In this document: in pieces, positions 3,401 to 49,796 of the stretch
Position numbering within the stretch: the stretch's first letter is position 1
Layout: every line of letters begins with the position of its first letter
Assembly: GCA_009760885.1 (NCBI GenBank)
Contig: CM019721.1
Span: 21,879,639-21,943,638 of the forward strand
Length of the DNA: 64,000 nucleotides
Source: Achatina immaculata
Lineage: Eukaryota > Mollusca > Gastropoda > Stylommatophora > Achatinidae
Direction of reading: 5' to 3'
Made by a program: the position numbers and the translations under genes
Notes under the pieces: generated by a model
The model's input: the letters and a program-made list of their open reading frames with translations, nothing else
Told to the model about the DNA's origin: nothing
Database searches by the model: none

Positions 3401-6400
3401 AATGTTCTCTTCTTGAATGTTCTATTTTTGGTAGTTGTGATCTTGGATGCTGTGAGCTTGACTGTTTTGTTCTTGAGTGTTGTGAGCTTAGATATTCTGT
3501 GCTTGGATATTGTGAGCTTGATTGTTTTCTGCTTGGATGTTGTGAGCTTAGATGTTGTGAGCTTGGATATTGTGAGTTTAGATGTTTTGTGCTTGGATGT
3601 TGTGAGTTTAGATGTTGTGAACTTGGATGTTGTGAGCTTAGATGTTGTGAGCTTGGATATTGTGAGTTTAGATGTTTTGTGCTTGGATGTTGTGAGCTTA
3701 GATGTTGTGAACTTGGATGTTGTGAGCTTAGATGTTGTGAGCTTGGATATTGTGAGGTTAGATGTTTTGTGCTTGGATGTTGTGAGTTTAGATATTGTGA
3801 ACTTGGATGTTGTGAGCTTAATTGTTTTGTGATTGGATGTTGTGAGCTTGGATGTTGTGAGCTTAGATGTTTTGTGCTTGGATGTTGTGAGCTTAGATGT
3901 TCTGTGCTTAGATGTTGTGAGTTTGTATGTTCTGTGCTTAGATGTTATGAGCTTAGATGTTCTGTGCTTAGATGTTGTGAGCTTGGATGTTCCATGCTTA
4001 GATGTTGTGAGCTTGGATGTTCTGTCTTTAGATGTTGTGAGCTTAGATGTTCTGTGCTTAGGTGTTGTGAGCTTGGATGTTCTGTGCTTAGATGTTGTGA
4101 GCTTAGATGTTCTGTGCTTAGATGTTATGAGCTTAGATGTTCTGTGCTTAGATGTTGTGAGTTTGTATGTTCTGTGCTTAGATGTTGTGAGCTTAGATGT
4201 TCTGTTCTTAGATATTGTGCCTACCTCTGGCACCGTTTGGGATGACTTCTCTTTCTTGTCTAGTCTCAGTAGACCTGCAACTTCTGCTCTCTTCTAGTCT
4301 CAGTAGACCTGCAACTTCTGCCCTTTTCTAGTCTCAGTAGACCTGCAACTTCTGCCCTTTTCTAGTCTCAGTAGACCTGCAACTTCTGCTCTCTTCTAAT
4401 CTCAGTAGACCTGCAACTTCTGCTCTCTTCTAATCTCAGTAGACCTGCAACTTCTGCTCTCTTCTAATCTCAGTAGACCTGCAACTTCTGCCCTTTTCTA
4501 GTCTCAGCAGACCTGCATCTTCTTCTCTTTTCTAGTCTCAGTAGACCTGCATCTTCTTCTCTTTTCTAGTCTCAGCAGACCTGCATCTTCTTCTCTTTTC
4601 TAGTCTCAGCAGACCTGCAACTTCTGCTCTCTTCTAATCTCAGTAGACCTGCAACTTCTGCCATGTTCTAGTCTCAGCAGACCTGCATCTTCTTCTCTTC
4701 TCTTTTCTAGTCTCAGTAGACCTGCAAATTCTGCTATTTTCTGTTGATGTCATGAAAATCTTGAAGCATTGGTGCTGTGGTAGATGGAAGAGAGAGGGTG
4801 GGGTATGTCACAATGACTGGTTAGATGCAGGAGAGAGGGCGGGGTATATCACATAGACTTGTTAGATGAAGGAGAGAGGGTGAGGTGTGTCACAATGATT
4901 TGTTAGATGGAGGAGAGAGGGTGGGGTATGTCATAATGATTTGTTATATGAAGGAGAGAGGGTGAGATGTGTCACAATGACTTGTTAGATGGAGGAGAGA
5001 GGGTGGGGTATTTTACAATGACTTGCCTTAAGTTCCTCAGTGGACTCAATAAGCAAGATTCCTAGCTGGCTCCACCACCATGAGAGTTTCAGTCAGACTG
5101 AAAACAAGACACTCTCATAGTCTGTTACTAGAATCATCACAGGGAAGTGTGTCATTTGAGAAATCAGATTTAAAGGCTCCTGATAACTTTTTAATTTCAA
5201 ATGTCGCTGAAAATTTCTCTTGTTCAAGATTAACCTCTGCATTATTCTAGTGCTATCACTCATCTTTGCTTCGTCTTTGCTTCATCTTTGTTTCATCTTT
5301 ATTGCTCAAAGAAAAGAATAACACCAAAATGTAGCATTACCATCGATGGCACAAATATGAAACAAGTTAATAGATTCAAGTACTTAGGAACGATTATAAC
5401 AACTGATGGGAAATGTCACAATATAATAAAAAGCAGATGTGCTCAGGCCAAGTCAGCATTCCAGACAATGAGACACATCTTGTTCAACAGATCTATATCA
5501 ATGGAAACAAGATTCCGAGTACTTAAATGTACTTACATCGAGCCAATTTTGTTTTATGGGTGTGAAGCATGGTCTATGAATAAGAGAGTACAGCGAGAAA
5601 TGGAAGCCATAGAGATGTGGTTTATAAGAAAGATGCTGAAGGTACTGTGAACAGCCAAGAAAACCAATGAAGCAGTCTTAAGAGAGGCTGGAGTTAAAAA
5701 GCAAACTATAGCAAAGATCAAAAGCAGACAAGCGAAATTTATAGAATATTTCCTGAGAAGAGGGAAATTGGAACACACTGTGGTTCTAAGGACTGCAAAC
5801 GCGCCACAAACAGCCTCTGGCAGTCAAGTCCAGCTCCGGGCCTTCCCGTGGCAGAACTGTTTAAACTGACAGGAGAAGGGGCGAGGGCGAATATCTGGCG
5901 CCTGAAAACCAGTTACTTAGGGTAGATGAGTGTCACGTTTGGTAGCTCATCTGCCGCTGTTGGCGAGATCTTCAGCTGCTGTGTGTGGAGCGGTGCTCTT
6001 CCCGGCCAATGAAGAAATTTGCAAATGAGGTTGCCGCGCAGCATCACTGCGGAAAAGGTGGTTGAAAGATTAAAGCGAAGCAAACAGTCAAATCACGGCA
6101 CCTCTGGTCTGGAGGTCGGCCACGTCCTGAGTGCAGTCATATCGGGTGAAATGCATGAACCGGCTTGTCCCAGAGGTTAAGTCACTGCTGGCTTGACTTT
6201 TCAAATGCCGCGCGTGGAGTGAAGCTCCTCCCGGTTAAGGAAGTAAATGCGGAAATGCGCCGATGGGAAAAGGTGGTGGAAAGTGAAGTTTAACCTGGTA
6301 TGTCCAGTAGTATCGCTACGAGAGCTGTACCACGGCACCTCTGCTCTAGAGGCCGCCTACGTCCGAAATACACCTACACTGGTGAAATATGCCTAAACCG

Positions 6401-9400
6401 GCACACACCAGGGGTGGAACTCGATGGCTAGACATGTCATGCCACCTCCGCTCTAGAGGTCGATAACGCCTGATAAACACCCATACTGGTGAATTTTGCC
6501 TAAACCGGCTCATACCAGGGGTGAATCTTGAAGGCTATGAATGTCACAGTACCTCTGCCCTAGAGGTCGGTCCCGTCCCAAACATACCCATACTGGGAAA
6601 TGCCTAAACCGGCTCAACCCAGGGGTAGAAGTCACTAGTGGCGAGGATTCGTCCTCCTGTACAAAAGCTCCATCCTGGTCACAACTAGGAAAGGTAGCGG
6701 CCACGACCGCAAAATGCTGAAGTCGGAGACACTGGACCAGGGAAGTCTAGATAGGCAACCATCTCTCACCCGGCGGGGATGTCTGCGTATCCTAATCACG
6801 CTGAGGTTTTCCGGTGAGAAAGTCCAACCCTGGACTGGATGGGCAACCACCTCTCACCCGGCGGTGATACACGGGTATCTCAAAACCTCTGCATTATTCT
6901 AGTGCTATCACTCATCTTTGCTTCGTCTTTGCTTCATCTTTGTTTCATCTTTATTGCTCAAAGAAAAGAATAACACCAAAATGTAGCATTACCATCGATG
7001 GCACAAATATGAAACAAGTTAATAGATTCAAGTACTTAGGAACGATTATAACAACTGATGGGAAATGTCACAATATAATAAAAAGCAGATGTGCTCAGGC
7101 CAAGTCAGCATTCCAGACAATGAGACACATCTTGTACAACAGATCTATATCAATGGAAACAAGATTCCGAGTACTTAAATGTACTTACATCGAGCCAATT
7201 TTGTTTTATGGGTGTGAAGCATGGTCTATGAATAAGAGAGTACAGCGAGAAATGGAAGCCATTGAGATGTGGTTTATAAGAAAGATGCTGAAGGTACTGT
7301 GAACAGCCAAGAAAACCAATGAAGAAGTCTTAAGAGAGGCTGGAGTTAAAAAGCAAACTATAGCAAAGATCAAAAGCAGACAAGCAAAATTTATAGAATA
7401 TTTCCTGAGAAGAGGGAAATTGGAACACACTGTGGCAATTGGAAAAATTGAAGGAAGAAAAGACAGAGGAAGACAGAGAGAGAAGTTACTGGATGGGCTG
7501 TCATTGTGGCTAGGAAGAAAGTCAATGGTGGATCTCATAATCAGGTCTAAAGACAGGGAATTGTGGAGAGAAATGATGGCCTCCGCCACGTGCCATGGCA
7601 CTTGAATGAACTCAAACACTGGTAAAGTTATCTTTCATTTCGTTTAACTCCTAACTCATGTTACAGAAACACCTTATGGGCAGATCCCAGTCCTAATAGT
7701 GGACGGAAAGTATTATGCTCAGAAGTTGGCCATCAGTTTGTACTTTGCCAGACAAAGTGGTGAGTATTCATCATCATTGTCACTATCATTATTGTCACTA
7801 TCATTATTTTCACTATCATTATTGTCACTATCACTATTGTCACCATAATTGTATTTGCCTTTTGTGATGTGTAATTGTACATGAATTTTGTCTTTTTTTT
7901 TTGTAGACACTGTAGATTGCATGCAAAAAATATGTAATAAAAAGAATAGTTTTCTTTCTATTTCATTTGATTTAGTAATTATTCTTTGTTTATTTTATTT
8001 TCTATTTCATTTGATTTAGGAATACTTTCTTTCTTTCTTTTTTTTTTAGCCCATGAAATTCACCTATTCTTCTGTATATTCACATTTCAAGTGTCTCAGT
8101 TTTCTGTTCCATTTTCTTATGTTCATGTTTCCAAACCATAGAGTGGTGTGCCATAACATAAGACATGTTTTTCTACATAAGAAATTTACCACTAGAGTAT
8201 CACAGTTCCTGTATGACTGCTACATTTGTAAATTCTACATCACTGATAACTTTCAGGCTTGTATCCGAAGTCTGCAACCGAACTTGAGTTTCTGAGGTAT
8301 GACACAGCCTTGAACTTTACAGAAGAGGTTCTAGAAAACATCATTCAGGCACAAGTAGACAAGCATATTCGCAGCAATGTAAGTACAACTTTCACCATCT
8401 TGCATCTTACATGTCTTACATCTTTCATGTGCCTTTAAATGTTACACAGAACTGGCACCACGTTTTTCTGTTTTCAGCGAGTTTTTCCACTTTGTCAAGG
8501 ATCTTATGCCCACTAATTTAGTCTCTCTCAACATGTTCTCTTTAGTGTTTCACGTGTCAAATGCTTCGTTGCAAATGTTCATAACAATATTGCTTTTCCC
8601 ATCTAGACTCACCTCATATCATCTTAATCCTCATCTTACAACTCATCTTATACTTCATTTTACACCTCACCTTACACTTCATCTTACACTTCATCTTACA
8701 CCTCATCTTAAAATGGATGAGAAGTCAGGTGAAGGTATCACAGTTGATGAGAAGTCAGGTGAAGGTATCACAATGAATGAGACATCAGGTGAAGGTATCA
8801 CAATAATTGAGAAGTCAGCTGTAGGTATCACAATGGATGAGAAGTCAGATAAGCTATCACAATGGATGAGAAGTAAAGTGTAGGTATCACAATGGATGAG
8901 AAGTCAGGTGAAGGTATCACAATGGATGAGAAGTCGGGTGAAGGTATCACAATGGATGAGAAGTCGGGTAAAGGTATCACAGTGGATGAGAAGTTGGGTG
9001 AAGGTATCACTTCTGAAGTTAATCTAAAAAAAAACTCCTCAGCATCATTCCATCAGGCTGCACTAACACAGCAGCATTCCTGTTCTATTAGCCAGGACAC
9101 ACTAACACAACAGCATTCCTGTTCTATTAGCCAGGACACACTAACACAACAGCATTCCTGTTCTATTAGCCAGGACACACTAACACAATAGCCTGTGACA
9201 TTCTTTACCTACATCTTCCTCCCTAACCAACTCCACCTGTCACTAACATTTACTACTTCCAGCTCCATATATTACTTCCAGCTCCATATATTACTGCCTG
9301 CTCCACATATTACTTTCATCTACACTTATTACCTCCAGCTCCATATATTACTTCCAACTTCACATATTGCTTCCAGCTCCATATATTACTTCCTGCTCCA

Positions 9401-15489: not shown

Positions 15490-17395
15490 AGAAGCCCCTA
15501 GAAATAAATGGATGACAGACGACATCTTAGGACTGATGGACAAGAGGAGGAGGAGTAAAAATAACCAGGAAAAATATAACAAGATAAATAAAGAAATAAG
15601 ACGCAAATGCGGAGAAGCAAAAGAAGTGTGGTTAAATGAACAGCGCAGACAGATAGAGGACTCTCATATTAAAGACAGCAAAAACATGCACAAACGAATT
15701 AATGAACTCACAGGCAGGAAAACAAAATATACCACAGGATGCTTGAAATCGAAAGAAGGTAAAATGTTAATGGGAAAAGAAGACATTGTGGACAGGTGGA
15801 CAGAGTATATCGTTGAGCTATATGGAGGAGAAAGACCAGAATTAACACCAGATACTGAAAACTGTGATGGACCGCCAATACTTGAAGATGAAATCATAGA
15901 TGCCATCAACACATGAAGAAAGGAAAAGCGACTGGGCCTGATAATATAACAATAGAAGAAATAGAGGCACTAGAGGAGACAGGAATAAAAATAATAACCA
16001 AGTTACTGAATGACATTTACAACAATAGTTATATTCCCAGTGACTTGCTTAAATCCACGTTTATAGCACTACCAAAGAAACCAGGTGCAAAGGAATGTGA
16101 CGACCACCGGTCTATCAACCTCTCATGTCACATAACGAAGCTACTTCTGAGAATAATTATGAGAAAAACAAGGAAAAAGATAAAAATGGAAATAGCAGAT
16201 GAACAGTTTGGATTTGTTGAAGGAAAGGGAACACACAATGCCATTTATCCTTTACGAACACTAACAGAAAGAGCTTTAGAAGTACAGAAAGATTTCTACT
16301 TATGCTTCATTGATTACACCAAGGCATTTGACAATGTGAAACATAATGAAATTATTAAAATGCTTGAAGACATCAGTATAGACGGCAAAGACCTGAGGAT
16401 TGTACAACATCTATACTGGCAGCAAGAAGCAGCAGTTCGAGTTGAAAATAGAACTGGAAAATATCAACTTATAAAACAAGGGGTGCGACAAGGATGTGTA
16501 CTATCTCCAGACCTTTTTTCTCTGTACAGCGAGAATATTCTAAGAACAATCATGACAGAACCAGACATAAAAATTGGAAAATACAATATTAACAACCTTC
16601 GGTATGCTAACGACACCGTACTGATAGCTGAGAACCAACAAGACCTGCAAAATCTCTTGGATAAAGTCACCAAAGAAAGTGAACAGAAACGCCTTACATT
16701 GAACATCAAAAAGACAGAGACTATGGTTATATCTAATAAACAGAATCCACCAGCAAGCAGTATTAAATTAAACGGAACTATTCTAAAGGAGGTGCTGAAA
16801 TTCAAATACCTTGGAGCAGTAATAACTTCAGATGGGAAATGCAGAACAGAAATTAGGAACAGAATAGGCCAAGCAAAGACTGCATTTCAGAGAATGAGAA
16901 ACATATTGACCAACACATCCTTATCAATGAATGTTAGAAAACGAGTCCTAAAATGCTATATTGAACCTATCTTGTTATATGGAAGTGAATCATGGACAAT
17001 AGGCAAGTCTGCACAAAAATCATTGGAAGCAGCAGAAATGTGGTTTATTAGAAGAATGTTGCGAATCCCCTGGACAGCAAAAATAACTAATGAAGAATGT
17101 AGGAGAAGAGCTGGAGAGACAAAAAAAAACCTTGTCAAAAAGATAAGAGAGAGACAATGTACTTTCATAGGACATGCAATGAGAAGAGGGGGCATTGAAA
17201 ATATTATAACAACAGGAAAAATAGAAGGAAGAAGATCAAGAGGAAGACCAAGAGAAATGATACTGGACAGTCAGACGGGATGGTGTGAGAGGAGATCACC
17301 AACTGAGCTGATGGCCTGCATGAAGGATCGGATACTCTGGAGAAGCATAATAGCCAACGCCAGTCGGCACGGCACATGATGATGCTGATGATGAT
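15490..17395 (+). mobile_element. 5'-truncated LINE with reverse transcriptase
   Basis: A non-LTR retrotransposon lacking its endonuclease end. It starts directly after an AT-rich microsatellite, inside the linker before the reverse-transcriptase domain, and ends in a GATGAT-type 3' tail (17377-17394) typical of RTE-like LINEs. It is the most complete copy of the family that also supplied the fragments in GST intron 1. Clade assignment (RTE/BovB-like from the [14 protein letters not shown] and ANASRHGT tail) is tentative. Confidence 0.9.
15512..17379 (+). pseudogene. LINE reverse transcriptase ORF (frameshifted, catalytic-site mutant)
   Basis: A 134-codon frame (15512-15916) and a 488-codon frame (15913-17379) form one protein separated by a one-base shift at about 15912, just before the conserved GKATGPD block. 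The second frame carries RT motif A ([12 protein letters not shown], Asp134), the [11 protein letters not shown] block (about 189-199), the active-site loop at 231-234, the thumb [25 protein letters not shown], and a basic [10 protein letters not shown] tail. The loop reads YAND instead of YADD, so one of the two metal-binding aspartates is Asn233. With the frameshift and the 5' truncation, this copy cannot be autonomous. Confidence 0.9.
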
Positions 17396-26549: not shown

Positions 26550-26890
26550 ACTGTCCATGCTTTGGCTGCATACATTAGTGTGGTCAGAACAACAGCTTTA
26601 TAGACCTTTAACTTGGTGGCAGCATACATTAGTGTGGTCAGAACGACAGCTTTATAGACCTTTAACTTGGTGGCAGCATACATTAGTGTGGTCAGAACGA
26701 CAGCTTTATAGACCTTTAACTTGGTGGCAGCATACATTAGTGTGGTCAGAACGACAGCTTTATAGACCTTTAACTTGGTGGCAGCATACATTAGTGTGGT
26801 CAGAACGACAGCTTTATAGACCTTTAACTTGGTGGCAGCATACATTAGTGTGGTCAGAACGACAGCTTTATAGACCTTTAACTTGATGGT
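26550..26890 (-). repeat. 54-bp tandem array inside the LINE ORF
   Basis: Six consecutive copies of a 54-bp segment encoding TKLKVYKAVVLTTLMYAA on the minus strand. That segment normally occurs once in this LINE family, just before the AWTVY block. Because 54 is 18 codons, the frame remains open for 182 residues. Confidence 0.95.
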
Positions 26891-29140
26891 AACACCGAGT
26901 CCTCTTCTTTTCCCATACATTTTTTCCTAGCCTCCCAAATGCTGCACTGGCTCTAGCCATTCTGTTGCTGACTTCAGCATCAAGACTGACTGCCCCAGAA
27001 AGGGTACTGCCAAGATAAGTGAAATTTTCTGCGGATTTTAGCTTTTGTCCCTTTATCACGATTTCCAGGTCAGTATATTCTTTGTTGGGGGCGGGTTGAT
27101 ATACAACTTCTGTTTTTCCTATGTTGATCGTAAGGCCAAAGTTGTCACGTGTCCCTCGAGAAGTTATCAGTAATGGTTTGCATATTAGATGTTGAATTAG
27201 CATTTAGTGCACAGTCATCAGTGAACAGAAAGTCTTTGATTTTCACATTCCTAACTTTTGAGGCAGCTTTTAATCGCCTTAAATTGAAGAGCTTTCCATC
27301 TGTTCTATAAATTAACGGAAAACAGTTTTCGTTTGAGATTCCGGAGGCATCCATGAGCACACCAGAGAACATCGTGCTGAAGAGTGCAGGTGCAAGGACA
27401 CATCCCTGCTTTACCCCACAGGTAATAGGAAAGGATTCGGAGACCTCACCATCATCGAGAACACAAACCTTCATGCATTCATGAATTTGATGAACTATTT
27501 CTATGAACCTGGCTGGGCATCCAAATTTAGCCATTATTAGCCAAAGACTGTCTCTCTTGACAGCATCAAAGGCTTTGTTAAGTCTACAAAAATGGTTAAT
27601 AGGTCACTGTGCTGATCCTGGCACTTTTCTTGGAGTTGGTGGATAGCGAAGATCATGTCAACTGTCCCTCTTCCTGCTCGAAAACCGCATGGACTCTTGG
27701 GAAGCAAATTATCCTCAAGATATTTATTGAGTCGGTTTAGCAGGACGCGAGCCAGTACTTTGCCAGTGATTGATAGAAGCGAAATTCCTCTGTAATTGTC
27801 ACAATGGTGGCAATTGCCCTTATTCTTGTACAGGTGGACCATTTGAGCATCTTTAAAATCTTGTGGTAGAGTTCCCGAGCTCCAAGCTGAGCAGAAGAGA
27901 TCAGTGAGGCTTTGTATGATGCGGGTTCCCCCTACTTTGAAGATCTCAGCAGGGATGGCATCTGAGACTGCAGCTTTCCCCCTTGATAACTGGTTATGGC
28001 GTTCTTAACTTCCTGGATGGTTGGTGGTAGATCTAGCTTGCTTTTAATTTCAACCTGAGGTGCGAGCAATCGCTTCGTCATTGATGGTCGATGACCAATT
28101 GAGGACTGTATTGAAGTGCTGTGCCCACCGCTTCAGGATTTCGTTTTTTTCTGACAGTAGCATGTTCCCATCTGAGCTGTATAGAGGTGCAGATCTTGAG
28201 GATTTCGGTCCATATATTGTCTTTAGTGCATCATAAAACCTTTTCGTATCATTCCTATCTGCGTACCAACCATGTGTCATATAATTTATTTTGACATTCC
28301 TTACGTGCCCGAACGTATAGTGCCCTCTTTGATAAAGATGTTGGGTCACTTAGTGTTTCCTTGTATAGCTATTTTTTTTTTTTAGCTAGTAAAGTTTTTA
28401 TCACGATGTCATTTTCGTCAAACCAGTCTTGGTTTTTATGCTGGTTTACACCAAGACGGTCCTTTACTGTAATGTAAACGGTTTCTTTAAACATCATCCA
28501 GTGTTTGCCAATATTATCATGATCTCTTGGAAAGTTCTCTAACTTCCTTTCTAGGTTGTGAACCAAGCATTCTGTGATTATCTCAGAATTGAGTTTTTTA
28601 ACACTGAGTCTTTTTTGGACTCTCTGCCCTTGAGGCCATCTTCTTGGTTGGATGTGTAGCTCAAGCTTTGATATAATCAGTCTGTGGTCCGTCCAACAAT
28701 CAGCACCACACATGCCATTTGTAGCACACACATCTCTCAGATCTCGTCTTCTTGTGATGATATAATCGATTAAGTGCCAGTGTTTGGAACGAGGATGCAT
28801 CCAAGATGTCTTATTTCTTTTTGGCAAGCAAAACAGGCTGTTGGTGATCATGAGGTTGTGTGTGGCACATAAACTTAACGGCAGATGTCCATTGCCATTT
28901 CATTTGCTGATCACGCCATTCCAGAACTGGTGGTCTGAGCCGACTCTGGTATTTAGATCTCCAAGAATAATTAGTTTATCCATTCTGGGTACTTTAATCA
29001 CAGCAGCCTCCAGTTCCTCATAAAATTGTGACTTTGTTGATTCAGGGTTTGTCATTGTTGGGGCGCAGACACTGAGTAGGGTTATGAGTTTCTTACTGTT
29101 TACAGGGAGCCTCAGTGTCATAAGTCGGTGGCTAGTTCTC

Positions 29141-30307: not shown

Positions 30308-31585
30308 CAAGGGATGATTGATAAGTTCTCGGCGTAAGGTACAAATACTTGAAACACACAGTTGATATTATGTGCATTGTAGATCAGGTTAGTATAAGAT
30401 TAAACACCAAGTTTCAAGAAATTAACTGCAACCAATTTTTTTTTAACAGTCTTCTGAAGTGGTAAAGGGTAGCAGAAATTGAGAAAATGGATAAAATTTC
30501 TCATTGAGCAGTCATTCGCTACCTCTGCATCAAGGGCTTATCATCGAAGGAGATCCATGAGGATATGACAAAGACTCTAGGGAAGAGTGCCCCTTCTTAC
30601 AGCACAGTGAAGAAATGGGCAGCTCAATTCAAACATGGAAGGGAGAGTCTAGAAGATGATCCCCATCCAGGAAGACCAAGAACGGTAACCGATGAAACCA
30701 CCGGCAGAGTCCATGACATGATAATGGAGGATCGATGACTAACTGAGTGGTATATTGCTGCTGAGTTGGGCATCTCCCAGTAACGTGTTCATGCCATTAT
30801 TCACAATGATTTTCAAATGACAAAGCTCTCTGCTCGATGACTTCTTGGAGCTGATCACAGACGACAGCATCTCAACATTTCAAGAGACAATCTTGGCCAT
30901 TTTTCTGCAGATCCTCAAAAGTTTCTTCAGCAGTTTGTATCTACGGATGAAACTTGGATACATCATTTTCAACCAGAAACCAGAGAACAGTCAAAGCAGT
31001 GGAAACATGGATCCCCACCTCCAAAGAAAGCAAGGGTGGTTCTGTCTGCAGGCAAAGTGATGGCTTCCATCTTTTGGGATTCAGAAGATGTGCTATTGGT
31101 AGACTATCTTCAAAAAGGCAGAACGGTGACCTGGGCCTATTATGCTAATCTTGTGAAGCAACTGCGGGTCAAACTGAAGGAAAAGCATCGAGGGAAATTG
31201 AAGAGAGGAGTCATCTTTCATCAAGATAATGCTCGATTTCACAAGTCGGCAATGACAATGGCTGCCATTCATGAATGCGGCTTCCAGCTTCTTGAACATC
31301 CTCCTTATTCCCCAGATTTGGCCCTTTTGGACTATTACCTGTTTACCAAACTCAAAAAGGAGCTCAGCGGTTGCAAATTTGCTTGAGATGATGATGTCAT
31401 TCATGCTGTAGACCACTTTCCACTGGCACAAGATGCTGACTTTTACAAAGAAGGGATCCATATGCTCCAGGATTGCTGACTAAGTGCATAAACTTGCAAG
31501 GGGACTATGTTGAGGAATAACCCACAAAAGTTGTCCATAAATAATCCGTTGTACCTTATGCCAAGAACTTATCAATCACCCCTCG
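30308..31585 (+). mobile_element. full-length mariner inserted in the 28-bp array
   Basis: Flanked by TA (30306-30307 and 31586-31587). Terminal inverted repeats of about 38 bp begin CAAGGGATGATTGATAAGTT on the left and CGAGGGGTGATTGATAAGTT on the inverted right end. Removing the element and one TA gives back the array sequence GAAGCTATGTCTCAG, which occurs intact at about 25927. Confidence 0.95.
30487..31520 (+). pseudogene. mariner (DD34D) transposase pseudogene
   Basis: About 344 codons from MDKISH. The helix-turn-helix half (STVKKWAAQFKHGRESLEDD, HPGRPRTVT) and the catalytic half are colinear: TDETWIHHF (first Asp), FHQDNARFH (second Asp), and PYSPDLALLDYYLF (third Asp). At least five in-frame stops interrupt the reading frame (after KISH, EDR, ISQ, SAR and CKFA). 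It ends with the usual YVEE at a stop. The catalytic residues are kept but the copy cannot make a full protein. Confidence 0.9.
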
Positions 31586-35739: not shown

Positions 35740-37400
35740 GGTTCTAAGGACTTTTATTGCCGGAGGTAGGGTGGAGAATTCGCTCTCTGCACCAATGGCG
35801 TGCGTCACAAATAGCCTCTGGCAGTCAAGTCCAGCTCCTGGCCTTCTCGTGGCAGAACTGTTTAAACTGACAGGAGAAGGGGCGATGGCGAATATCTGGT
35901 GCCTGAAAACCAGACAGGGTAGATGAGAGTCATGTTTGGTAGCTCATCTACTGCTGCTGGCGAGAATCTTCAGCTGCCGTGCCTGGAGCGGTGCTCCTCC
36001 CGGCCAATGAAAAAAGGTGCAAATGGGATTGCCGCGCGGCACCACTGCAGAAAAGGTGGTAGAAAGGATAAAGTGAAGCAAACAGTCAAATCACGGCACC
36101 TCTGGTCTGGAGGTCGGCCACGTCCTAAGTGCAGTCATATCGGGTGAAATGCATGAACCGGCTTAACCCAGAGGTTAAGACACTGCAGGCGAAACTCTTC
36201 GGATGCTGCACGTGGAGTGAAGCTCCTCCTGGTCTGAAAGAAACTGCGGAAAAGAAATAATGATTGCTGTATGGTGCCGATGTGAAAAGGTGAAGGAAAG
36301 GATAAAGTGAAGTTTAATCGATATGTCCAGTAGTATCGCTGCGAGAGCTACACATACCACGGCGCCTCTGCTCTAGAGGCCGGCCACGTCCGAAATACGC
36401 CTACACTGGTGAAATATGCCTAAACCGGCATACACCAGGGGTGAAACTTGATGGCTAGGCATGTCACACCACCTCCGCTGTAGAGGTCGGTCACGCCCGA
36501 TATACACCCACACGGGTGAAATATGCCTAAACCGGCACACACCAGGGGTGAAACTTGATGGCTAGGCATGTCACACCACCTCCGCTCTAGAGGTCGGTCA
36601 CGCCCGATATACACCACACGGGTGAAATATGCCTAAACCGGCACACACCAGGGGTGAAACTTCAAGGCTACGCATGTCACGGTACCTCTGCTCTAGAGGT
36701 CGGTCACGTCCCAAATACACCCATACTGGGAAATTATGCCTAAACCGGCTCAACCCAGGGGTGGAAGTCACTTGCGGCGAGATTCGTCCTCCTGGACAAA
36801 AGCTCCATCCTGGTCACAACTAGGAAGGGTAGCGGCCACGACCACAAAATGCTGAACTCGGAGACACTGGACCAGAGCAGTCTAGATAGGCAACCACCTC
36901 TCACACAGCGGGGATGTATGCGTATCTTAATCACGCTGAGGTTTTCCGGTGAGAAAGTCCAACACTGGACTGGTTGGGCAACCACCTCTCACCCGGCGGT
37001 GGTACACGGGTATCTCAAAACACGTCGAGGTTTTCCAGTGAGAAAGTCTAATTCTGGGCTGGATGGGCTACCACCTCTAACCCAGCGGGGATATACTGAT
37101 ATCCAAAACACGTCGAGGTTTTCCGGTGAGAAAGTCCAACTCTAGATTAAACTGGTGCAATGAAAACCACGGTGTCACTTAATCCCGCTTCTGAGACCCA
37201 CCAAGAATACAAGCTCAAGCCCTGCGATACCCTGAACCTCTTGTGGTCTTCTCGGGGATATCGTGTGGTCCTCGTTAAGTCCCGTGGTCCCCGAAAGGAC
37301 CACACGGGAGACCACGGGACTTAACGAGGACCACAGGCGTAAATTCAGTAGGATCACAGGGCGGTTTTGGTGGTAGAAGCGAACGAAGAAGAAAAAGAAG
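35740..37400 (+). mobile_element. unidentified 1.66-kb retroposon, complete copy
   Basis: Inserted in the 44-bp array and flanked by TTCATTTAGTT (35729-35739 and 37401-37411), an apparent 11-bp target-site duplication. The 3' end is a short A/G tail (GAAGAAGAAAAAGAAG), as in LINE-mobilised elements. It is GC-richer than its surroundings, with internal roughly 110-bp repeats (about 36350-36770) and roughly 80-bp repeats (about 36880-37145). A perfect 25-bp inverted repeat sits near the 3' end. No ORF over 100 codons is recognised, so it is presumably non-autonomous. A 3'-truncated copy is at 5782-6885. Confidence 0.8.
37265..37334. other. perfect 25-bp inverted repeat (stem-loop)
   Basis: Arms 37265-37289 and 37310-37334 are exact reverse complements (GTGGTCCTCGTTAAGTCCCG...) around a 20-base loop that itself holds GGTCC...GGACC. 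It lies about 65 bp from the 3' end of the retroposon. Confidence 0.95.
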
Positions 37401-39115: not shown

Positions 39116-42100
39116 GTGCGCGTGTATCTCAGAAACAAGACGTCAGATTGTGTTAAACCTACAACGGATGTTCATGAGCACAATGATCTTATTAAAACTT
39201 TTAAAACAGCATTGGAATGGATGCCTGAAGTAATCATAAGAGCAGACCGACGACCAGCAGGCGAACACGGGCGGCGCTTCAATGCTCCTCGGGTAGATGA
39301 AGTCGCCGTGGTTATATCAAGCGATGAAGTTGATCTGTAATACTTTCAAGTTATGAATCATACATTTCTGACCAAAGAAGATGTTCTTGATTAATACCGA
39401 CTTTATCTTCACACATATCCAGATTTCTGATGTTTAGATTATGTTTCACAAACACTGCCACTTCTATAATCAGGGGAAGTCCGATGAAAAGTTCACTGCA
39501 TTATTTAATTCTTACAAATAAGTTCAAGATTTTTAGTTGATAACATCACTTGAATTGAATCACTTAATCATTGGTTCACAATATCAAACTATCACATTCT
39601 ACATGCAGCATTCAGATTCACAATATACTACACTTGATACGAGAACATTTCCTAACTCGGCATTATATCATATCTGCAACACGTGGTCAACCAACTACCC
39701 GACTAAATCACTGTACTCGAAGATCAAAACTTATCAATTCTTCGTAATCCCTTGAATCACTTGAAACACAGATTCAGTCTGTCCTAGAACTACTTCTGCA
39801 AGACTCCTTTTCCTGAGTATCTATTGCTCTAATTGTCCATCTATTCCAGCTGTCGTTACCTATTTCTTCTTTGTCTCTTGTGTCTTCTCTGGACTGTGTT
39901 CTCCTTCTGCTGCTCTTCTCCGGTCGTCTATTCTGCTATTCTCTTGTATGGACCGGTCTCAGTTCACTGACCGTCCTTGTTCCTGCGTCTTCGGGGCTCC
40001 GTCTCCTCTCTTCTACTTCTTCTTCGTCCCCCTTCTTCCTTGTTCTTCTTGTCAGTTCTTCTGTCTTCGGGCTCCCTCCTCTGTCTCTTCTTCTTCCTCG
40101 TCCCCCCCCCCCCCGTTCCTCTTCTCTCCTTTTTATCGTCAAGTGCAGCTTGATGGATTAACCAGTAAGTATTTTGGCTCCACCTTTCAGATGTCCACTG
40201 GTTCCCATGAGTGTTCTGATTGTCCGTCATTCAAATTGCCCCGTTACTTATATGTCGTAAGTCAATTGTCCAATAGGCCACGCCTCCAAATATTTAATTG
40301 GTCAGCTGGCCGAGTTGGTCACTTGTTTATTTAAAACCCGTGTGCAATCGCGTCATCTAACAGGTGTCAAGTGTCAATTCTTATTTACCTAAGTCATTAT
40401 CTTGCTATTTCGTGTCAGATGTTTTATTGTGTCCTTGCTTTTCATTGTGTCTGCCTTTTCTATTTTGTTTACTTGTGTCAGCGTCCAGTCACCGCTTTGT
40501 TATCACTGGACCATCCTATTTTCTGGCGTCCTTCCTTTGTCTTCCATATGTGTCAGCGTCACTGAGTCTTGTCTTTTTCTATTCACTGTTTACTTTTGTC
40601 CGCGTCTTGTTCTAGTGTCATGGAAGTTTTATACCTTTTTCTTCCTTACCTCTCCATTTTTCTCTGTAGCTATTCGATGTTACTATTTTCTTTACAGTAA
40701 ATTTTCATAATCATATTCATTAATGATAATAATAATAACAATATCCGTTACTTACAAGGCCAAGCTACAGATCAACGGGATATCATAATTCAACGACGAG
40801 ACGATTCATTGCAGCGCATATTAGAAACACATCTATCTTATGGTGGTCTACAGTACCCTGTGATATTCCCCCGTGGTGAAGATGGATATCAGTTTAATCT
40901 GAGGCAGGTCAACCCAACAACAGGTAAAACAACCAGCAAGAAAGTTTCAGCCATGAATTTCTATACATACAGACTGCATGTTCGAGATACTGAACACAAC
41001 CACATATTAAACTGCAGACAATTGTTTCATTAATTCATCGTTGATATGTGTAGCAAAGATCGAGAATGAGTGTCTTCTTTACACTCGTCTAAATCAACGT
41101 AAACCGAGAGTTGAGGAATACATTCACCTGAGAGATGCTGGGGCAAATGATGGGAACGCTGAAGACCTCGGTGCCTTAGTCATACTACCAGCTACGTTTA
41201 CAGGCAGTCCCAGACACGTGCACGAATATATGCAGGATGCTATGACGTATGTGAGGACGTACGGGCGACCAGATTTATTTATCACCTTCACCTGCAATCC
41301 GACGTGGACAGAGATCAAGGAGATGCTTTACCAGTGGTCAAGTACCTGATTGCGAGAATTTTTAAACAGAAGCAGTTGAAACTAATTGACGTTATAACAA
41401 AGGGTCATGTCTTTGAAGTGCCACGATGCCGGATGTACACAATTGAATGGCAAAAGCGAGGACTGCCACACTCATACAATTTAATCTGGTTGGCGGACAA
41501 ACTTCATCCCACACAAATCGATGACGTTATATCTGCTGAGTTGCCTGCCCAACACAAGATCCTGAACTTTTTGCAGTGGTAACGAAAAACATGATCCGCG
41601 GACCATGTGGAGATCTCAGTCCTAACTCTCCTTGTATCATGGACGGAAAGTGTACCAAGAATTACCTAAGAAGGTTGATTACTGAGACACAGACAGGACA
41701 TGACGGTTATCCTCTATATAGACGGCGAGCTCCAGAAGATGGAGGGTTCACGGGGAAACTAAAGATACGAAGCATCACAGATATAGAAATCAACAATACG
41801 TGGGTTGTGCCATTTTCGCAGCTGCTGTCAAAAATGTTTCAGGCACACATCAACGCGGATGTAACATGTGAAATGGATTGAATATGTGTGGAAGTATGTT
41901 AACAAAGGTAGTGATATGGCTATTTTCGACATAACCAATGACAGAGCAAACGATGAAGTGATGTGGTATCATTTAGGACGGTACATTAACAGCAATGAGG
42001 CAGTTTGGCGAATCCAGGGATTTCCAATTCACGAACGACACCCTACTGTTGTTCACCTCAGCGTCCATTTAGAAAATGGTCAGAGAGTTTATTTCACAAC

Positions 42101-43280: not shown

Positions 43281-45150
43281 AGAACTACAGTGTTGAGCTG
43301 AGTGCATACGTCTCAGATAAGAAGTCACTTCTGAATCAGAAAAAAACGTACCAAGTTATCATGGATCATGTTGTGAAACAACAAGGTGGTAGCATTTTTC
43401 TTGATGCTTCTGGGGCACAGGGAAAATTTTTAACTAATTTAATTCTGGCCGAAATCAGGGCACAGGGAGACATTGCTCTTGCCATCGCATCTTCAGGAAA
43501 TGGGGCTATGTTAATGGAATGAGGCAGTGTCTGCCCACACTTAAGTTAATGGAAGGAGGCAGGACAGCCCACACTTAAGTTAATGGAAGGAGGCAGGACA
43601 GCCCACACTTAAGTTAATGGAAGGAGGCAGGACAGCCCGCACTTAAGTTAATGGAAGGAGGCAGGACAGCCCGCACTTAAGTTAATGGAAGGAGGCAGGA
43701 CAGCCCACACTTAAGTTAATGGAAGGAGGCAGGACAACCTGCACTTAAGTTAATGGAAGGAGGCAGGACAGCCCGCACTTAAGTTAATGGAAGGAAGCAG
43801 GACAGCCCGCACTTAAGTTAATGGAAGGAGGCAGGACAGCCCGCACTTAAGTTAATGGAAGGAGGGAGGACAGCCCGCACTTAAGTTAATGGAAGGAGGC
43901 AGGACAGCCCGCACTTAAGTTAATGGAAGGAGGCAGGACAGTCCACACTTAAGTTAATGGAAGGAGGCAGGACAACCCGCACTTAAGTTAATGGAAGGAG
44001 GCAGGACAGCCCACACTTAAGTTAATGGAAGGAGGGAGGACAGCTCGCACTTAATGGAAGTAGGGAGGACAGCCTGCACTTAAGTTAATGGAAGGAGGCA
44101 GGACAGCCCGCACTTAAGTTAATGGAAGGAGGCAGGACAGCCCACACTTAAGTTAATGGAAGGAGGCAGGACAGCCCACACTTAAGTTAATGGAAGGAGG
44201 CAGGACAACCCGCACTTAAGTTAATGGAAGGAGGCAGGACAGCCCACACTTAAGTTAATGGAAGGAGGCAGGACAGCCCGCACTTAAGTTAATGGAAGGA
44301 GGCAGGACAACCTGCACTTAAGTTAATGGAAGGAGGCAGGACAGCCCACACTTAAGTTAATGGAAGGAGGCAGGACAACCCGCACTTAAGTTAATGGAAG
44401 GAGGCAGGACAGCCCACACTTAAGTTAATGGAAGGAGGGAGGACAGCTCGCACTTAATGGAAGTAGGGAGGACAGCCCGCACTTAAGTTAATGGAAGTAG
44501 GGAGGACAGCCAGCACTTAAGTTGCCACTTGACATCGCCAGGCAGGAAAGTCCTACCTGCAACATATGCAAGACAAGTGGTCAGACACAGGTTCTAAGAC
44601 ATGTAAATTAATCATATGGGATGAATGCACCAAGGCTCACAAGAAAGTTCTCGAGGCCCTTGGTGTCACTCTGAGAGATCTGATAGGAAACGACGACCTG
44701 ATGTGAGGAGCTCTGGTACTCCTCTGTGAAGACTTTCGTCAAACTCTGCCCGTCATCCCAAAGTCAACACCGGCCGATGAGATCCACACATGTTTAAAAC
44801 ATTCATTTTCATGACGACATGCGCGAAAGATAACTTCAAAGCAAAACATGAGAATACATCTGAGGGATGAGAGTGCTTAAATGTTCTCAAACAAACTACC
44901 AGAAATTGGAGATGGTAGATTAGCAGTCGAGTCTTCTTGTAAGATAAAATGTTCATCTGATTTTTGTACTCTGGTGCCGTCCATTGCAGAGCTAATAGAT
45001 GCAGTCTATCTGGCTGTTTTCCAAAACTATCACAATTTGAACTGGTTGCGAGAGAGGGCCATTCTTGCTCCGAAAAATGAAGATGTCCACAAAATAAACA
45101 ATCAAATACTTGCCATGTTACCAGGTGTAGTCAGTTAGTATAGGTCTATT
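43281..45150 (+). pseudogene. Helitron PIF1-like helicase, interrupted by its own minisatellite
   Basis: Before the array: NQKKTYQVIMDHVVKQQGG, IFLDASGAQGKF (Walker A, degraded from the usual GGTGKT) and NLILAEIRAQGDIALAIAS. After the array: LPLDIARQ..., IIWDECTKAHKKVLEAL (Walker B/DEAD-like with WDE), ALVLLCEDFRQTLPVIP, NWLRERAILAPKNEDVHKIN and ILAMLPGVV. Both stops and frameshifts are present. By family knowledge this is the superfamily 1 DNA helicase that follows Rep in Helitrons. Confidence 0.9.
43511..44523 (+). repeat. 34-bp minisatellite derived from helicase coding sequence
   Basis: About 29 units of TTAATGGAAGGAGGCAGGAC plus AGCCCACACTTAAG. The unit encodes the LMEGGRTAHTLKL stretch that in this helicase directly precedes LPLDIA, and indeed the last unit reads straight into LPLDIA. 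Two shortened units (near 44050 and 44450) sit in a larger repeated block of roughly 410 bp, so the array also has higher-order structure. Confidence 0.95.
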
Positions 45151-45210
45151 GATACCGTAGCTGCTGAAATATTCCTTCTGTCATTGTTCTCATTTGACTA
45201 TTATTATATA

Positions 45211-46700
45211 CTGTTCAAAAAAAGAAACGCAACGAATATGATGTTGCGATGTAAACTGAAGTTTGCTGATCAGACAAGGGCAAGTTGCCTGAAATGTTCA
45301 CTTGGACATTAACTTCAAGTGCCGACCTGAAATGTACTCGGCAGATGATTCATGAGCACAGAAAAGTGACACTAGTCAAAACAGCATTTTTGACAATAAC
45401 TCAAGACAGGTTCATGAGAATTCCATGAAACTTACTGAATACAAAACTCACCGACCATGTTATTGAATGTCTATAAAAGACTGACACTCCTCGAATGAAT
45501 TCATTTGAAAACTCAATGCGCAAGTATGGCTCATCCAACTCTAGAACAACGACTCATCATCATTGGACATTTACAGACTGGACAGTCACAAAGTGTAGTG
45601 GCCAGACAAGTTAATGTGATTAGAAGCACCATTAGTCGCCTTTGGAGATGATTTCAAGAAACTGGCTCAGTTGCAGACCGGCCGCACAGTGGAAGACCCA
45701 TAGTCACAACTCCTGCCGAAGACCGCTTCATACGGCTGTGTCCCCTCAGGAATCGATTTGCATCTGCGTCCTCAACAATCCAGTCAATAACAACAGCTTG
45801 TTGAATTTCAGATCAAACATCAGGAACCGGCTACATGATGTTGATCACTGGGCTAGAAGACCCTTCAGAAGTCCTGTTCTTACGGACCGGCATCACCAGA
45901 ACCGACTGCAGTGGGTGAACCAGCATCATCAATGGGCCGTTGCGAATGACTGGAGAAGGGTTTGGTTTAGTGATGAATCATTCTTTATGCTCCAGTGACA
46001 CAATAGACGGAGAAGAGTTTACCACAAAGTCCATGTGCGGTATGGCCAGAACTGCAAGGATGAGGCTCCTCAACATGGTGGAGGTGTACTGCTGTGGGAG
46101 AAGTGACCTGGTACAAATTGAAGGACGCCTGAATGCCCAATGATACATCACTGAAATTCTTCGTCCTTCCGTCCTTCCACTTCTGTCTGCACCAGGGTAG
46201 ATTTTTCAGCAGGACAATGCTCAACCTCATGTGACACAACCCACCACTCAGTTCCTCGCTGACAACAAAGTCCAGACCATTCCCGTGGCCATCCATGTCA
46301 TCAGACATGAACCCAATAGAACGCTTATGGGATGAACTCAACAAACAAGTCCAGAAGCGAGATGTGGCGCCAACCAATCTCAAAGATGTCTTTTGCACTG
46401 CGGGAAGAGTGGGCAGCCATCCCACAACAACAGATCCAACGGCTAATCTGATCCATGTCAAGGAGATGTCGTTCTCTGATACAGGCCAGAGGAGGCCATA
46501 CACCTTACTGAAACGGAGGCCTCAGTCGCAAAGAATAAAAGTCCAAACCAAATTTAATGAACATCATTTCATTGCTAAAGTCTTAAAGTTTCTTCACACC
46601 AAGATTGAAACATTAAATCCATGAAATAAAATTTTGATACAAGTTTGAAATTTGGTGTCCACTACGACTACAGGAGTGCTGCATTTCTTTTTTTTAACAG
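45211..46700 (+). mobile_element. full-length Tc1-like transposon, copy 2
   Basis: 1490 bp flanked by TA (45209-45210, 46701-46702), with terminal repeats CTGTTCAAAAAAAGAAACGC on the left and its diverged inverse on the right. Same family as 21170-22672, opposite orientation, on a rough reading some 80-90% similar. It lies immediately after the last recognisable Helitron helicase codons. Confidence 0.92.
45526..46500 (+). pseudogene. Tc1-like transposase pseudogene
   Basis: Starts MAHPTLEQRLIIIGHLQTGQ with paired helix-turn-helix motifs (VVARQVNVIRSTISRLWR, stop, GRPIVTTPAED). The catalytic DDE set is visible across shifting frames: WFSDESFF (first Asp), FQQDNAQPH (second Asp) and MNPIERLWDELN (Glu). 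Several stops and at least three frameshifts make it inactive. Confidence 0.9.
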
Positions 46701-48111: not shown

Positions 48112-49796
48112 ATCAGTCTTTATTTAATGCTCTAACTGTAGAGACTGGCCCAGCCCATTAGTTTAATACTCTAACTGTAGAGACTGGCTCAGCCCATTTG
48201 TTTAATACTCTAACTGTAGAGACTGGCCCAGCCCATTTGTTTAATACTCTAACTGCAGAGACTGGCCCAGCCCATTTGTTTAATACTCTAACTGCAGAGA
48301 CTGGCCCAGCCCATTTGTTTAATACTCTAACTGCAGAGACTGGCCCAGCCCATTTGTTTAATACTCTAACTGTAGAGATCGGCCCAGCCCATTTGTTTAA
48401 TACTCTAACTGCAGAGATCGGCCCAGCCCATTTGTTTAATACTCTAACTGCAGAGACTGGCTCAGCCCATTTGTTTAATACTCTAACTGTAGAGACTGGC
48501 TCAGCCCATTTGTTTAATACTCTAACTGTAGAGATCGGCCCAGCCCATTTGTTTAATACTCTAACTGCAGAGACTGGCCCAGCCCATTTGTTTAATACTC
48601 TAACTGTAGAGATCGGCCCAGCCCATTTGTTTAATACTCTAACTGTAGAGATCGGCCCAGCCCATTTGTTTAATACTCTAACTGCAGAGACTGGCTCAGC
48701 CCATTTGTTTAATACTCTAACTGCAGAGACTGGCTCAGCCCATTTGTTTAATACTCTAACTGTAGAGACTGGCTCAGCCCATTTGTTTAATACTCTAACT
48801 GTAGAGACTGGCTCAGCCCATTTGTTTAATACTCTAACTGTAGAGATCGGCCCAGCCCATTTGTTTAATACTCTAACTGTAGAGATCGGCCCAGCCCATT
48901 TGTTTAATACTCTAACTGCAGAGACTGGCTCAGCCCATTTGTTTAATACTCTAACTGCAGAGACTGGCTCAGCCCATTTGTTTAATACTCTAACTGTAGA
49001 GACTGGCTCAGCCCATTTGTTTAATACTCTAACTGTAGAGACTGGCTCAGCCCATTTGTTTAATACTCTAACTGTAGAGATCGGCCCAGCCCATTTGTTT
49101 AATACTCTAACTGTAGAGACTGGCTCAGCCCATTTGTTTAATACTCTAACTGTAGAGATCGGCCCAGCCCATTTGTTTAATACTCTAACTGCAGAGACTG
49201 GCTCAGCCCATTTGTTTAATACTCTAACTGCAGAGACTGGCTCAGCCCATTTGTTTAATACTCTAACTGTAGAGACTGGCCCAGCCCATTTGTTTAATAC
49301 TTTAACTGTAGAGACTGGCTCAGCCCATTTGTTTAATACTCTAACTGTAGAGACTGGCTCAGCCCATTTGTTTAATACTCTAACTGTAGAGACTGGCTCA
49401 GCCCATTTGTTTAATACTCTAACTGTAGAGACTGGCTCAGCCCATTTGTTTAATACTCTAACTGTAGAGACTGGCCCAGCCCATTTGTTTAATACTCTAA
49501 CTGCAGAGACTGGCTCAGCCCATTAATACTCTAACTGCAGAGACTGGCTCAGCCCATTTGTTTAATACTCTAACTGCAGAGACTGGCCCAGCCCATTTGT
49601 TTAATACTCTAACTGCAGAGACTGGCTCAGCCCATTTGTTTAATACTCTAACTGTAGAGACTGGCTCAGCCCATTTGTTTAATACTCTAACTGTAGAGAC
49701 TGGCCCAGCCCATTTGTTTAATACTCTAACTGCAGAGACTGGCTCAGCCCATTTGTTTAATACTCTAACTGCAGAGACTGGCTCAGCCCATTCCTA
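48112..49796. repeat. 39-bp minisatellite with higher-order structure
   Basis: About 43 units of TTTAATACTCTAACTGTAGA plus GACTGGCCCAGCCCATTTG. Units differ at TGTAG/TGCAG, GACTGG/GATCGG and CCC/CTC. Thirteen codons per unit give a 442-codon spurious frame (48198-49526). A six-unit pattern is exactly repeated at 48588-48821 and 48822-49055. Confidence 0.97.

Follow-up and report, generated by a model that had tools for sequence, protein, structure and literature searches.

The window, as the whole 64,000-bp stretch of Achatina immaculata DNA analyzed here is called, contains on its forward strand the remains of a Helitron. The N-terminal or Rep part of the element is present by match to the Helitron_like_N domain, in one relic at 41122..41346 (Pfam PF14214, E 6.1e-20) and a second piece at 41403..41579 (PF14214, E 6.4e-5; its 23.7 bits fall below the 28.9 cut-off). 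The PIF1-like helicase follows in three pieces on the same strand: one with the Walker A motif at 43289..43519 (PF05970, PIF1, E 6.8e-11), one with the WDECTKAHK region at 44548..44703 (Pfam PIF1, E 3.4e-5, 24.0 bits, below the 25.9 cut-off), and one at 44881..45135 that has no Pfam match alone and was recognized by alignment to other Helitron copies. The window helicase is a decayed relic containing stops; the flank consensus of the Helitron copies consists of open helicase codons. Helitrons end at their 3' side in a hairpin and CTRR, followed by a host T. In relatives of the window element this end was seen as a GC-rich hairpin and CTAG, then T, at 7 of the 17 loci compared, with TTAG in an eighth, and the homology of the window copy stops near 45160, before this 3' end. 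The DNA located where the Helitron homology ends, at about 45200-46600, appears by eye to be Tc1-like. Elsewhere in the window lie a transposase relic at 30841-31386 (Pfam Transposase_1, E 5.6e-21) and a reverse transcriptase open reading frame at 15892-17376 with several named matches from sea slugs; a search of a phage collection gave no match.

The helicase is interrupted between its Walker A part and LPLDIA block, the place named in a preliminary description of this DNA, by a minisatellite array of 30 units, mostly of 34 bp, at 43511..44521 on the forward strand. Tandem Repeats Finder, run on the window, placed it at 43510-44523 with a period of 34, 30.1 copies, 92% matches, and a score of 1697, and 30 units at 92% matches is far above chance level; the roughly 29 copies described earlier are thus real. 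The array comprises a degenerate first unit of 35 bp (43511..43545), which the helicase piece just enters and into which the upstream helicase codons run on, 27 units of 34 bp, and two shortened units of 29 bp. The first of the latter (44022..44050) has lost 5 bp between TTAA repeats, and the second (44425..44453) lies 403 bp beyond it, a spacing that marks the larger repeated block already noted in the preliminary description. The last unit (44488..44521) continues into TTGCCACTTGACATCGCC, the LPLDIA block. The GTT microhomology reported at the boundaries is present at both edges and also at the unit junctions, save where a 29-bp unit precedes the junction. The term satellite, which had been applied to the array, is too strong. 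Arrays of classical satellite DNA are long, free-standing, and typically heterochromatic; the arrays parsed here have 2 to 50 units, and helicase sequence adjoins them in the 20 loci fetched from the genome. A 34-bp unit and these unit numbers fall within the range of minisatellites (units of about 10-100 bp, up to about 100 units).

The source of the unit can be read from Helitron copies elsewhere in the 1.65-Gb genome, in which the same place in the helicase is occupied by a single 39-bp, 13-codon segment reading LMEGGRTAHSALK. By sequence comparison, the 34-bp unit is this segment minus 5 bp. In the helicase frame the consensus unit gives LMEGGRTART and then a stop, and an array of such units meets stops in all three frames, whereas 39-bp units alone stay open; the earlier statement that the unit encodes LMEGGRTAHTLKL is therefore not borne out, as no unit does so in one frame. 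The descent of the unit from the Helitron's own helicase codons, also claimed earlier, holds well, because many relatives in the same genome have one segment and the segment occurs exactly once in 119 of the 120 homologues listed (1626 were found), with up to 6 changes in 13 allowed for a match. The remaining protein, P0019, starts inside the segment. Insect and hookworm proteins are among the homologues with these conserved helicase codons, and such comparisons support one segment as the ancestral state. A protein listed under Aedes albopictus (P0002) shares 78% identity with the helicase across 80% of the query, a similarity that could come from horizontal transfer or contamination. GTT flanks the duplicated segment; by our estimate, a shared 3 bp would be expected at roughly 1 in 20 breakpoints placed at random.

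The presence of GT and AG at the bounds of the array, and the fact that an array made purely of 39-bp units would stay open, might be taken to indicate an intron or a functional in-frame repeat of the protein. Both are highly improbable. Removal of the sequence from GT to AG would, as reasoned from the sequence, put the following codons out of frame and cost the protein 13 conserved residues, on which ground the intron reading was rejected, and the 34-bp units bring stops into all frames. Moreover, outside CpG-type sites the units of 11 array loci have changed about as much as their flanks (4.7% versus 5.8%).

The preliminary description proposed that the unit be sought elsewhere as a dispersed repeat, and it occurs at many other loci. 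Two units used as a genome query produced 52 candidates, 40 of which were scored and yielded 276 matches, and among the matches listed there are at least 33 other places with the 34-bp repeat. The array lies beside the same helicase in all 20 of the 33 places that were fetched, with both flanks in 17, only the downstream flank in 2, and only the upstream flank in 1, and its phase is identical wherever an edge is present. Among the other 13 places, 5 were read by way of a flank search (L034 and L049-L052), 7 have a helicase protein match no more than about 0.5 kb away (from a protein search with 351 candidates, 150 of them scored), and the last, on C6, was left out. This distribution bears on the converse history, in which a free 34-bp satellite came first and was then captured by, or inserted into, a Helitron. 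An independent satellite of this kind had been named as the finding that would overturn a coding origin, but each of the 20 fetched loci has at least one helicase flank, and none has an array without one. Nothing was found in support of capture, the unit consists of helicase codons conserved in homologues, and single-segment copies exist, so that this history was rejected as scarcely credible.

Comparison of 17 loci indicates how the arrays came to be dispersed. After the hairpin and CTAG (TTAG in the eighth of the loci with this end) the sequences cease to align, and a shared 3' end followed by non-aligning DNA implies separate insertions. Three loci on C13 (L019, L026, and L027) share several kilobases past the element and, from that similarity, may represent one duplicated locus. 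Assemblies frequently misjudge the length of tandem arrays; as an explanation of the array or of its spread, however, an assembly artefact is most implausible, given that arrays with private variants and differing unit numbers occur at many loci with differing 3' flanks. Groups of three helicase matches lying close together on C24 (24643616-24647053) and about 4 kb apart on C3 (48515692-48524418) are possible tandem or duplicated Helitron copies.

Whether other copies of the Helitron carry one segment or an array, a question raised with the first description of the locus, has a mixed answer, as both occur. A search with the downstream flank gave 220 candidates, of which 40 were scored and all 40 read, the window included. 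Twelve of these helicase copies have arrays of at least 2 units, 9 have a single 39-bp segment (L054 being assigned to this class by eye), 9 have a single segment of the 34-type (33 to 35 bp), 5 have other partial deletions, and in 5 the segment is truncated or lost. With a single-segment query, which is biased toward single 39-bp copies, all 40 scored matches (of 151 candidates) span the site without an array, with a net length change of 0 in 21, -5 in 12, and some other value in 7. A further set of 16 copies with contiguous helicase matches contains 13 judged to be of the 39-type (3 by eye) and 3 of the 34-type; since a contiguous helicase match favors 39-type copies, this set was not used as a census. 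Single 34-bp segments differ at 8 of 227 sites, versus 16 of 207 for single 39-bp segments.

The composition of the arrays provides intermediates between these states. Among 23 parsed arrays, the window included, 18 consist purely of 34-type units. Mixed arrays retain 39-bp, in-frame units in varied proportion, these being 7 of the 11 units in L020, 3 of 7 in L034, and 2 of 21 in L025; L041 has one unit of each type, and in L017 one of the 50 units is of the 39-type, possibly as an artefact of parsing. Four other arrays (L021, L022, L024, and L052) have no clear flank on one side and were not parsed. As the phase is the same throughout and 18 of the 23 arrays have 34-type units only, the duplication and the deletion are most likely older than the window copy. 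The array, present in the same phase in many other Helitron copies, was thus probably not first born at the window site, contrary to what had been supposed.

How array-bearing and single-segment copies are related to each other is less simply read from their flanks. The flank tree (51 rows, with L009, L017, and L045 dropped and L022 represented without its downstream flank) is star-like, with 35 of its 48 inner branches unsupported, and array state changes 17 times on it, as compared with 15.5 times when labels are shuffled. None of the three classes of copy (array, single-34, and single-39) forms a lineage of its own. Nor does any flank column separate 39-type copies (13) from 34-type copies (35), single-34 from array copies, or 39-type from single-34 copies, the best p values being 0.021 over 255 columns, 0.0105 over 172 columns, and 0.017 over 63 columns, respectively. 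This lack of lineage structure implies either a shared origin just before or during the burst of insertion or a copy number that changes very often.

One alternative extends the in-place birth of the preliminary description to every locus, with arrays born independently after each insertion from a single segment, always with the same breakpoints, at a site that is a hot spot of tandem duplication. Array state is scattered on the star-like tree and unlinked to flank differences, the window array has grown mostly locally, and a similar scatter is seen in a LINE-like element described below. Other tandem duplications, each common to a few helicase copies, also occur in the flanks, namely of 28 bp (L013, L051, and L060), 56-57 bp (L010 and L024), and 67 bp (L011 and L015), with microhomology of 1 to 4 bp by eye. 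Independent birth is nevertheless unlikely. Every array that has both its edges shows the same breakpoints; in several arrays the divergence among units comes close to the age of the insertion; and, with 18 of 23 arrays purely of the 34-type, the same 5-bp deletion would have had to occur in dozens of copies. Deletions of at least 3 bp in the flanks number 26 in 41 upstream rows and 33 in 49 downstream rows (L009, L017, L026, L027, and L045 dropped), and the same deletion seldom recurs exactly, the commonest being found in 5 copies at a CAAACAAA repeat. Because flank deletions are few and rarely recur exactly, the 5-bp loss was probably shared rather than recurrent, and its recurrence is disfavored. 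L026 and L027 have variant units 2 and 3 in common, which also speaks against independent birth, although in both loci these units lie inside a larger shared duplication.

The arrays have nonetheless continued to change at their separate sites. The ratio of unit divergence to twice the flank divergence ranges from 0.08 to 0.98 over 20 loci, with a median of 0.47 and a value of 0.37 for the window (L009 and L017, with poor flank alignment, were set aside). Judged from these ratios, a few arrays seem to date from about the time of their insertion, and most look younger or homogenized. In the window array, 24 of 30 units have C at unit position 15, a variant found in none of the 385 units compared from 22 other loci with arrays; window units served as the query by which some of these loci were detected, so that any bias would be toward shared variants. 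A private variant in so many units shows that the bulk of the window array expanded locally or in its immediate source. The earlier claim that the array grew in place accordingly stands for most of its length and is not supported for its first birth.

The account considered likely is that of a minisatellite belonging to a Helitron family, in which a helicase segment was duplicated, a unit lost 5 bp, the array spread with the element, and turnover followed at each site. Because the array lies beside the helicase in many copies and a single segment is ancestral, the segment would have undergone duplication in source Helitrons, whose movement then dispersed it. The initial step would be a tandem duplication of the 13-codon segment in a source element, producing a 39-bp array, probably at the GTT microhomology and by slippage or template switching. 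Loss of 5 bp in one unit, itself directly visible in the sequences, would then have produced the frame-breaking 34-bp unit; that the 39-bp array came first and the deletion second is suggested by the three mixed arrays. Array-bearing copies, their helicase dead, may have been mobilized in trans by single-segment copies in one burst, landing at the many places that the separate insertions attest, after which each array would have grown, shrunk, or been homogenized where it lay. The simplest reading is a single burst from near-identical sources among which the repeat already varied. The comparisons establish the coding origin of the unit, its common site and deletion, its dispersal by separate insertions, and its local expansion.

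A second coding array in the window bears comparison with the first. On the reverse strand at 26563-26889, a 54-bp, 18-codon unit encoding TKLKVYKAVVLTTLMYAA is repeated in frame. The open reading frame that contains it has no Pfam match of its own; RVT_1 matches (Pfam) are found a short way upstream of it, also on the reverse strand (27148-28004), and we take the frame, from its motifs, to be the tail of a LINE. Twenty copies (L099-L118) were read from 40 scored of 453 candidates, with reads cut at about 400 bp. Ten have an array at the same place, of 4 to at least 7 units, 9 have one segment, and 1 has none. The tree of these copies, in which L107 aligned badly, is nearly unresolved, with 5 changes of array state versus 6.9 for shuffled labels and values as low in 55 of 500 shuffles, so that weak clustering of array state in the LINE-like element is possible. 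A broader and more tentative proposal, which we regard as doubtful, is that transposon copying itself is coupled to tandem duplication, with Helitron and unrelated LINE-like bursts gaining and losing arrays at fixed coding sites. If so, a large share of each family would consist of array-bearing copies without lineage structure, and minisatellites would be born as a side effect of transposition or of an unusually duplication-prone host rather than by rare accident.

Tandem repeats make up 27.5% of the window (1-64000), and they differ in their distribution. Unlike the 34-bp array, a neighboring minisatellite with a 39-bp unit (48119-49792) has a single candidate place in the whole genome. A 107-bp repeat at 36365-36763 and 6336-6630 was also found in 4 of the 20 fetched 9.5-kb loci (L010, L013, L016, and L017) and is therefore probably carried by a mobile element.

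Minisatellites born from transposons, also within open reading frames, and repeats within relatives of Helitrons are already known (PMC9659126, PMC6947457, PMC7492417). Central satellite-like repeats are described for the Helentron/HINE elements Cg_HINE of oyster (PMC7492417) and DINE-TR1 of Drosophila (as cited in PMC6947457), which resemble the present case in having tandem repeats of variable number inside a rolling-circle transposon that disperses them. Those repeats form the central module of non-autonomous elements, between two non-coding modules; here, the array lies inside helicase codons and its unit stems from the gene for the helicase, the element retains coding relics of both the N-terminal part and the helicase, and single-segment relatives reveal the coding origin. 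Other transposon-born minisatellites and satellites, including those from LINE-1 ORF2 (PROsat, Pvc 20) and 7276 human minisatellites (reviewed in PMC9659126), likewise represent segments, sometimes coding, turned into tandem arrays. The present array differs in that it stays in its element, changes in length from copy to copy within a single family, and makes the change from 39 to 34 bp visible. Among the open-licence papers searched, none was found by title to treat a helicase-born minisatellite in a Helitron. Minisatellite birth by slippage or unequal crossing-over between short direct repeats of 5-10 bp (Haber and Louis 1998, as cited in PMC6947457) has a parallel in the GTT that flanks the duplicated segment. 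The shared stretches are nonetheless shorter than the 5-10 bp given there, at 3 bp for the present array, 2 bp for the LINE-like one, and from 1 to 4 bp for the other duplications, as read by eye.

To a known kind of event, the window case adds an unusually readable series of intermediates. The findings suggest that the coding sequence of two unrelated transposons has seeded dispersed minisatellites in one genome. For the Helitron, a natural series at one coding site, in dozens of insertions, leads from single 39-bp and single 34-bp segments through mixed 39/34 arrays to long arrays of 34-bp units, and as the relative age of the insertions can be estimated, the steps of minisatellite birth and turnover become countable.
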